A DNA stretch of 64,000 nt from Ruminococcus sp. AF31-8BH (GTDB lineage: Bacteria; Bacillota; Clostridia; Lachnospirales; Lachnospiraceae): NCBI RefSeq assembly GCF_003460605.1, contig NZ_QTVN01000003.1:248328-312327 (forward strand), given 5' to 3'. The position numbers and the translations under genes are program-made. Positions 3,179 through 3,661 of the stretch are shown piece after piece. Position 1 is the stretch's first letter; every line of letters begins with the position of its first letter. Below the pieces are notes generated by a model. That model was not told the DNA's origin. It saw only the letters and a list, made by a program, of their open reading frames with translations, and ran no database searches.

Positions 3179-3661
3179 TTATTTAAGAACTGGAAGAATT
3201 TTCTCAACGTCTGTATGAGGTCTTGGAATTACGTGTGTAGCTACAAGCTCTCCAAGTCTGGATGCTGCTGCGCTTCCGCTCTCTACTGCAGATTTAACTG
3301 CTCCAACATCTCCGCGAACCATAACAGTTACAAGACCGGATCCGATCTTCTCTGTTCCAACTAATGCAACGTTAGCTGCTTTGCACATCTGGTCAGCTGC
3401 CTCGATAGCTGCTGTAAGTCCTCTGGTTTCTACCATTCCTAAAGCTTCCTGTGTCATGATTTTTTCCTCCTTATGAATTGCTGGTTTCTCAGCTTCTATA
3501 TGTTTGGTTTCTGTAATCTTTTCATCTGCTGCAGTGGTTTTGGCTTCTTCCGCTTTTACCTCTGCGGCTTTTGCTTTTGTTGTTCTGGCCGTTCTTCTCG
3601 GAGCGGCTGCCTTTTTAGGGGCTGTTTTTTTCGCTGTCTCTTTCTTTTCTTCGTCAGCCAT
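3179..3661 (-). CDS. BMC-H shell protein with 68-residue Lys/Ala-rich N-terminal extension; second internal start
   Basis: The full product has 160 residues: an N-terminal tail of about 68 residues rich in Lys, Ala, Glu and Arg, then a standard hexameric BMC domain (EALGMVETRGLTAAIEA, pore KIGSGLVTVMVRGD, end HVIPRPHTDVEKILP). The upstream ATG at 3661 overlaps the previous stop as TAATG and has a GGGGGATGA site, so translation is probably coupled. A second ATG at 3457 opens the bare BMC domain (92 residues) behind a perfect AAGGAGG, so two products are expected. The domain is nearly identical to the 3985-4260 gene (about eight substitutions), implying a recent duplication. The tail resembles flexible basic histone-like tails; its function is unknown. 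Confidence 0.9.
   Translation of the reverse strand: MADEEKKETAKKTAPKKAAAPRRTARTTKAKAAEVKAEEAKTTAADEKITETKHIEAEKPAIHKEEKIMTQEALGMVETRGLTAAIEAADQMCKAANVALVGTEKIGSGLVTVMVRGDVGAVKSAVESGSAAASRLGELVATHVIPRPHTDVEKILPVLK
3458..3472 (-). promoter_or_regulatory. Internal ribosome-binding site that starts the short BMC-H isoform
   Basis: Complement of 3466-3472 reads AAGGAGG, 8 nt before the in-frame ATG at 3457. This is stronger than the site of the upstream start at 3661. The paralogue at 3985-4260 begins at the equivalent ATG. The arrangement resembles the PduB/PduB' double start known from Salmonella, but here in a hexamer-type shell gene. Confidence 0.75.

Follow-up and report, generated by a model that had tools for sequence, protein, structure and literature searches.

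The locus and its genes

The window, by which we mean the whole 64,000-nucleotide stretch of Ruminococcus sp. AF31-8BH DNA that was analysed, carries a run of BMC genes on the minus strand close to its first base. Apart from the gene at 3179-3661, which is described below, the genes are as follows.

215-763, minus strand: PduT-like tandem BMC protein (Pfam BMC, two stretches, the query starting two codons after the ATG)
780-2138, minus strand: PduS-like protein (open reading frame, named by position and Table 1 of PMC3557285)
2113-2379, minus strand: EutN/CcmL pentamer protein (Pfam EutN_CcmL, the query starting three codons before the ATG)
2487-3131, minus strand: PduL-type phosphotransacylase (Pfam PTAC)
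3661-3963, minus strand: BMC-H protein 'K', in the position of Cphy_1181, used as survey anchor (Pfam BMC)
3985-4260, minus strand: first PduA-type paralogue, bare form only (open reading frame, Pfam)
4387-4701, minus strand: BMC-H protein in the position of Cphy_1180 (Pfam BMC)
4725-5963, minus strand: alcohol dehydrogenase (open reading frame, named by position and Table 1 of PMC3557285)
5981-7369, minus strand: PduP-like aldehyde dehydrogenase (open reading frame, named by position and Table 1 of PMC3557285)
7445-8317, minus strand: class II aldolase of fuculose/rhamnulose-phosphate type (Pfam Aldolase_II)
8553-9101, minus strand: PduV/EutP-like GTPase with an acidic C-terminal tail (Pfam PduV-EutP)
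9108-9485, minus strand: EutS/PduU-like BMC-H protein (Pfam BMC, the EutS/PduU name given by position following PMC3557285)

The features of a GRM5 locus include a class II aldolase and a PduT homologue in a BMC locus (PMC6325248), besides a PduS homologue and a glycyl radical diol dehydratase with its activase. Pfam identifies both an Aldolase_II and a tandem BMC protein here, the latter named PduT by position, and on gene content we classify the surroundings as a GRM5-type fucose/rhamnose microcompartment locus. The BMC genes extend to the window edge at 215 and the locus may continue beyond the first base. Searches with tblastn, using five of the window BMC proteins, returned six BMC-domain proteins, none assigned as PduB and none located beyond 9485. 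Table 1 of PMC3557285, which describes the Clostridium phytofermentans locus, lists no PduB either.

The PduV-like GTPase ends in a 42-residue acidic segment (window 8553-8681), probably disordered, with five Lys/Arg and 14 Asp/Glu after residue 140. This segment and the first half of the shell-protein tail discussed below carry opposite charge. A partnership between the two was considered and rejected, as PduV shows no association with the tail: in the set of 63 loci where the aldolase gene is more than 1.5 kb from an edge, it occurs in 27 of the 40 that are tailed and in 14 of the 23 that are not.

Two start codons on a single gene

The segment 3179-3661 on the minus strand is a single open reading frame of 160 codons, with these features.

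3179-3661, minus strand: putative long isoform of 160 residues, a 68-residue tail predicted to be disordered followed by a PduA-type BMC-H domain (open reading frame, Pfam, homologues, AF2)
3179-3457, minus strand: putative short isoform, the bare PduA-type BMC-H domain of 92 residues, from an internal ATG (nucleotide-level conservation of the start and ribosome-binding site)
3458-3661, minus strand: tail-coding segment, comprising an N-terminal motif, a variable linker and K-E-(E/D) preceding the second Met (alignment, coding selection)
3466-3472, minus strand: internal Shine-Dalgarno sequence AAGGAGG (duplex energy -11.1 kcal/mol, conserved in the survey)
3659-3663, minus strand: TAATG, in which the upstream stop overlaps the long start (sequence)
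3667-3675, minus strand: Shine-Dalgarno-like AAGGGGGAT ahead of the long start, within the end of the upstream gene (sequence, duplex energy -13.0 kcal/mol)

Both starts lie where the original prediction placed them. The ATG at 3661 overlaps the stop codon (TAA) of the BMC gene upstream of it, an arrangement that makes translational coupling possible. The second ATG, at 3457, is in frame and forms codon 69. AAGGAGG occupies positions -15 to -9 relative to it, a spacing typical of a ribosome-binding site, and doubles as the codons for Lys64, Glu65 and the first base of Glu66.

Pfam detects a BMC domain at residues 73-148 only, with 103.8 bits against a cut-off of 24.5. Profile positions 1-75 are matched in order rather than permuted, as in BMC-H proteins, and the closest solved relatives of the domain in the PDB are a BMC-H tandem fusion and PduA. 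We therefore assign the product, by sequence, as a PduA-type hexamer protein (BMC-H). The short form had been described as a duplicate of the product of 3985-4260; the two differ at seven of the first 90 residues and share 237 of 270 nucleotides.

Relatives were assembled in two ways. The first set consists of the best 80 of 260 relatives together with the window and yields 53 tails. It was picked with peptide patterns, IHKEEKIM among them, and is biased for amino acids though not for codons; 13 entries lacking an ATG were dropped, including L038 and L052, apparently tailed from other start codons, and the long start chosen by rule is doubtful at a few loci, for example L022. The second set, the survey, was drawn without reference to the tail by anchoring on the upstream K gene, which was detected (E≤1e-20) in 76 of 397 genomes from the family. 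Of these 76 loci, 75 were read (G004 being covered by L057) and 72 have an assignable second PduA-like paralogue; L093, L119 and L154 were set aside, while L129 and L101, open upstream with no ATG, are counted as tailless.

Conservation of the internal start

AAGGAGG is found exactly at -15 in 51 of the 53 tails of the first set and in 40 of the 42 tails of the survey. The informative comparison is at the codon level, within the same tails. In the first set the Lys at -5 is encoded by AAG in 52 of 52 cases, as against 188 of 460 for the other tail lysines, and the Glu at -4 by GAG in 52 of 52, as against 89 of 299. The survey gives AAG at 40/40 compared to 146/385 (38%) and GAG at 41/41 compared to 75/231 (32%). 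For 30 non-redundant tails the codon pair at -5 and -4 is AAGGAG in every case, with only three of 30 other Lys-Glu pairs so encoded. Pooling all 95 tailed loci, a number in which some genomes are repeated (L081 is the same as L002, for example), gives 92/95 as opposed to 4/57; the three exceptions, L080, L100 and L134, all fall outside the non-redundant group. The flanking residues vary around the constant AAGGAGG, with His, Tyr, Gln, Asn, Phe and others at -6 and Glu, Asp or Val (GAA, GAT, GTA or GAG) at -3. These codon controls rule out a chance occurrence.

Relatives that lack the tail are also instructive. GGAGG starting between -14 and -11 is kept in 28 of 30 tailless survey loci. Six tailless loci (L049, L050, L133, L146, L147 and L150) have an in-frame stop four or five codons before the ATG, so that the internal-type ATG is the only possible start nearby. 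Blautia schinkii MSK.6.26 (L074) has lost the tail and retains the site and the start, with an extra ATG two codons before; unlike this strain, B. schinkii DSM 10518 (L002) is tailed.

Frozen synonymous sites, and tailless relatives that keep the start, indicate with high confidence that the internal start is functional. Together with coding selection on the tail, presented below, they lend good support to two starts on one BMC-H gene and so to the predicted pair of isoforms from a hexameric shell gene. The comparison of orthologues that the original prediction called for is less uniform: the second start and the tail are kept in many, but 30 of the 72 survey loci have no ATG-started tail.

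The N-terminal tail

The first 68 codons are rich in Lys, Ala, Glu and Thr. Residues 1-84 have 402 homologues at E≤1e-3. Of these, 120 were compared, several of them truncated or chimeric; in most the N-terminal motif recurs, as does K-E-(E/D) ahead of the second Met, with a linker of differing length and sequence in between. Among close relatives, in an alignment of 19 sequences, the motif reads MADEEKK..APKKAAAPRRTA.

Is the tail translated? Over 25 non-overlapping pairs the pooled dN/dS is 0.20, a value biased downward by the alignment of low-identity pairs at the protein level. In 32 pairs aligned as DNA the differences at codon positions 1, 2 and 3 are 0.147, 0.144 and 0.275, with about 17% of aligned bases out of frame, partly through alignment error. 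Where the gap between the K stop codon and the domain is at least 110 nucleotides, an in-frame ATG tail is kept at 69 of 77 loci. These three observations rule out the tail as an untranslated leader. The pattern of substitution is that of purifying selection at the protein level, and in evolutionary terms the tail behaves as conserved and translated sequence, the 30 tailless loci notwithstanding.

AF2 assigns pLDDT values below 50 to residues 1-63 and predicts no helix there, in a model of low mean pLDDT (58.6) built on an input alignment of 19 close sequences; the tail is predicted to be disordered. It contains 18 Lys/Arg and 14 Asp/Glu, a net charge of +4, and is a polyampholyte. The first 34 residues have 11 Lys/Arg and five Asp/Glu, the last 34 seven and nine. 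The earlier description of a basic, histone-like tail therefore fits the first half and is overstated for the whole. Homology to histones or H1 was rejected, with no Pfam match and no strong net positive charge; of three other tails scanned against Pfam, that of L023 matches HC2 below the cut-off (E 0.075).

Survey tails range from 19 to 109 residues and from -4 to +12 in net charge, so a simple polycation role cannot suit every one. Their median hydrophobic fraction is 0.09. A pattern chosen after viewing the tails, P.K[AT][VAIL]..R[VRTS], occurs in 10 of 42 compared to a mean of 0.09 in shuffles. The SPKK-like pattern [AST]P[KR][KR] gives no signal in the survey (3/42, 1.6 in shuffles); the Blautia-rich first set has 16/53 against 2.4.

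Predicted initiation at the two starts

Duplex energies were predicted for pairing with the 16S rRNA end. Long starts average -9.0 kcal/mol, short starts -11.5 and other tail codons -3.6; values of -8 or below are reached at 37 of 53 long starts, all 53 short starts and 5% of other tail codons. The short start has the stronger duplex in 41 of the 53 loci of the first set. The predicted mean energy of opening the mRNA is 3.4 kcal/mol at the short start and 7.1 at the long start (2.2 and 9.5, respectively, in the window). With an internal site predicted to be both open and strong, most of the protein made is probably the plain form. In the window, however, the long-start duplex is the stronger by duplex energy alone (-13.0 compared to -11.1), which counts against the long form being minor here, and we caution that the product ratio is not readable from sequence.

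Distribution

Of the 72 survey loci, 42 have a tail on the second PduA-like paralogue; the first paralogue has one in none of 71. Tails are restricted to the second copy despite the shared operon and similar sequence. In the first copy the position of GGAGG is variable, from -11 to -16, and it is absent in three of 71.

A tree of 71 loci, itself weakly supported, implies at least 12 changes of the tail label, two of them forced by strong branches, and the label is clustered (none of 500 shuffles is as low). Either losses are frequent or gains have been repeated. The tail is, on this phylogenetic pattern, useful but dispensable in evolution.

A phylum-wide search matched 97 of 398 genomes. Among the 29 best new loci, tails are present in three (L157, L158 and L170), each next to an aldolase or K-like gene; the aldolase-bearing L171 and L183 are tailless, an aldolase was not found in L187, the wider view of L157, and the remaining loci have flanks too short to type. 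An aldolase-linked BMC locus with PduL, PduP, PduS and PduT (L186, 5518-9554) encodes a distant BMC-H protein with a 75-residue, strongly basic tail (29 Lys/Arg, eight Asp/Glu) and CAGGAGG at -15. A downstream open reading frame at this locus is presumably a rhamnulokinase. The locus has two divergently placed tandem-BMC-like genes and five consecutive BMC-H-like matches, the tailed protein being one of the five.

The K protein has a median C-terminal extension of 4.5 residues in 78 tailed loci and of 18 in 53 tailless loci (p 3e-10, uncorrected). As this reduces to two independent pairs on supported branches, the idea of a trade-off between the tail and the K extension was dropped. At loci with a tailless second PduA the K protein can end in short, recurring motifs of the SKMLGEDPPDFVPK type or the YLQEV/YLYTV type (for example L072, L088, L096, L098 and L109, and L012, L093, L125 and L138); such motifs may be a substitute tail or a targeting peptide. 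The K proteins of L103 and L149 have long, Lys-rich ends.

Comparison with known systems

The nearest described counterpart is Cphy_1182 of the C. phytofermentans GRM5 locus, compared here through its published description rather than its DNA. It occupies the same position, between the PduK-like Cphy_1181 and the PduL-like Cphy_1183 (PMC3557285). A table footnote in that paper states that only residues 73-161 of Cphy_1182 align to homologues, which implies an N-terminal extension of about 72 residues; in the text available the extension is not discussed and a second start is not proposed.

Pairs of isoforms are known from other shell systems. PduB and PduB' of the Salmonella Pdu compartment likewise have two N-termini and overlapping genes, and the 37 extra residues of the long form bind the shell to the core (PMC9132943). 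The window gene resembles this pair in having an in-frame second start with its own candidate ribosome-binding site. However, PduB is a BMC-T protein (PMC6384099) with a short core linker, whereas the window protein has a single BMC stretch. In β-carboxysomes the M58 and M35 forms of CcmM arise from a second start, as proposed here, but CcmM is a scaffold of γ-CA-like and SSUL modules, the short form consisting of SSUL modules only, and not a BMC-H tile (PMC8580825).

PduK (PMC9132943) and EutK (PMC12487888) share with the window protein the combination of a BMC-H domain and an extension, although theirs is C-terminal. When either gene is deleted the compartments stay at the poles. The EutK tail is positively charged and the PduK extension is flexible and proposed to point outward; the authors suggest that these tails may be what holds Pdu and Eut compartments away from the poles (PMC9132943, PMC12487888). 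The tetracysteine of the PduK C-terminus and the positive C-terminal domain of EutK have no equivalent in the window tail, which has no Cys and no Pfam match and is predicted to be disordered, and the accessible text of the two papers gives no hint of a second start for PduK or EutK. A 2021 catalogue reports BMC-H extensions of up to 200 residues, mostly C-terminal (PMC8217296). PduA has its N-termini on the concave side, which is assumed to point outward in recombinant shells (PMC6109187), while the orientation in native shells is disputed (PMC6109187, PMC4315436). No report of a dual-start BMC-H gene was found among the top matches in an open-access literature library.

What might the tail do?

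Two products from one gene are strongly favoured by the evidence of selection and codon usage. Ribosomes arriving from the upstream gene would initiate at 3661 and produce the tailed subunit, and those binding the internal AAGGAGG would initiate at 3457 and produce the plain one. In the domain, the three kinds of subunit (plain, tailed and that of the first paralogue) share about 92% identity, and hexamers probably contain a mixture of them. Given PduA-type termini on the concave face, believed to be cytosolic, some tiles would bear a flexible charged strand tipped by the conserved basic motif, and the tails would project from that face. There they may act as the PduK and EutK extensions are thought to, dispersing or positioning the compartments by binding weakly to some cytosolic or anionic partner.

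The orientation of PduA and the PduK and EutK precedents make positioning or dispersal the most likely function, ahead of the alternatives below, and by analogy a cytosolic role is favoured over the docking of cargo, which the original prediction listed beside nucleic acid and positioning. The recurrence of a strongly basic tail in the distant, aldolase-linked L186 was counted for this analogy. We judge the whole account, a two-form gene with tailed tiles facing outward and a PduK/EutK-like positioning role, to be probable, our confidence being carried mainly by the two-product architecture.

The tail could instead be a non-specific charged brush, with no partner, that works against compartment sticking or sheet growth. 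This is compatible with two starts and differs from our preferred explanation in the last step only. Tails that are rich in Lys, Ala, Glu and Thr, polyampholytic and free to vary in length and sequence would suit such a brush. The N-terminal motif conserved beyond the variable linker in the close group, and the P.K[AT][VAIL]..R[VRTS] pattern, post hoc as it is, suggest instead a docking motif, and we regard the brush as a credible but unlikely alternative.

A shell-to-core linker of the PduB kind, with the dual start setting the dose of linker, is less probable still. PduB/PduB' provides the precedent of a dual-start shell gene, a separate PduB is assigned neither in the window nor in Table 1 of PMC3557285, and older docking work placed enzyme peptides on a concave side that faces inward. 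On the other hand, PduA-type N-termini are taken as cytosolic in recombinant shells, and encapsulation peptides are helical whereas this tail is hydrophilic and predicted to be without helix. The linker sequence diverges, many loci are tailless and a PduB gene may lie beyond the first base of the window.

Slightly weaker again, and in our view improbable, is the proposal that translation normally begins at the internal ATG, the long form being a rare by-product of coupling. The retention of the internal start, with GGAGG nearby, in tailless relatives, the repeated absence of the tail and the more open short site are what it would predict. It does not account for purifying selection on the tail, for the in-frame ATG tails kept across most long gaps or for the strong duplex at a majority of long starts.

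Intragenic Shine-Dalgarno-like sequences reportedly cause ribosomes to pause, but the suggestion that only the long form is made, with AAGGAGG slowing elongation for domain folding or present by chance, is very unlikely given the exact spacing to the ATG, the tailless relatives that start there and the codon controls.

Returning to the positioning role, a more specific and decidedly tentative version can be put forward for GRM5 compartments. Coupled and codon-locked starts would fix the ratio of tailed to plain subunits, and with it the number of cytosolic tethers on each shell, and the basic end-motif would dock to the nucleoid or some other anionic structure, taking the role that PduK/EutK or McdAB play in other systems.

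Isoform pairs are known for PduB and CcmM, and the pair proposed here belongs to a hexamer tile. For Blautia and its relatives among the Lachnospiraceae, what was loosely called an 'N-terminal extension' would become a system open to experiment. It may offer a natural route to shell decoration at a set dose, and a handle on the cellular placement of fermentative compartments.
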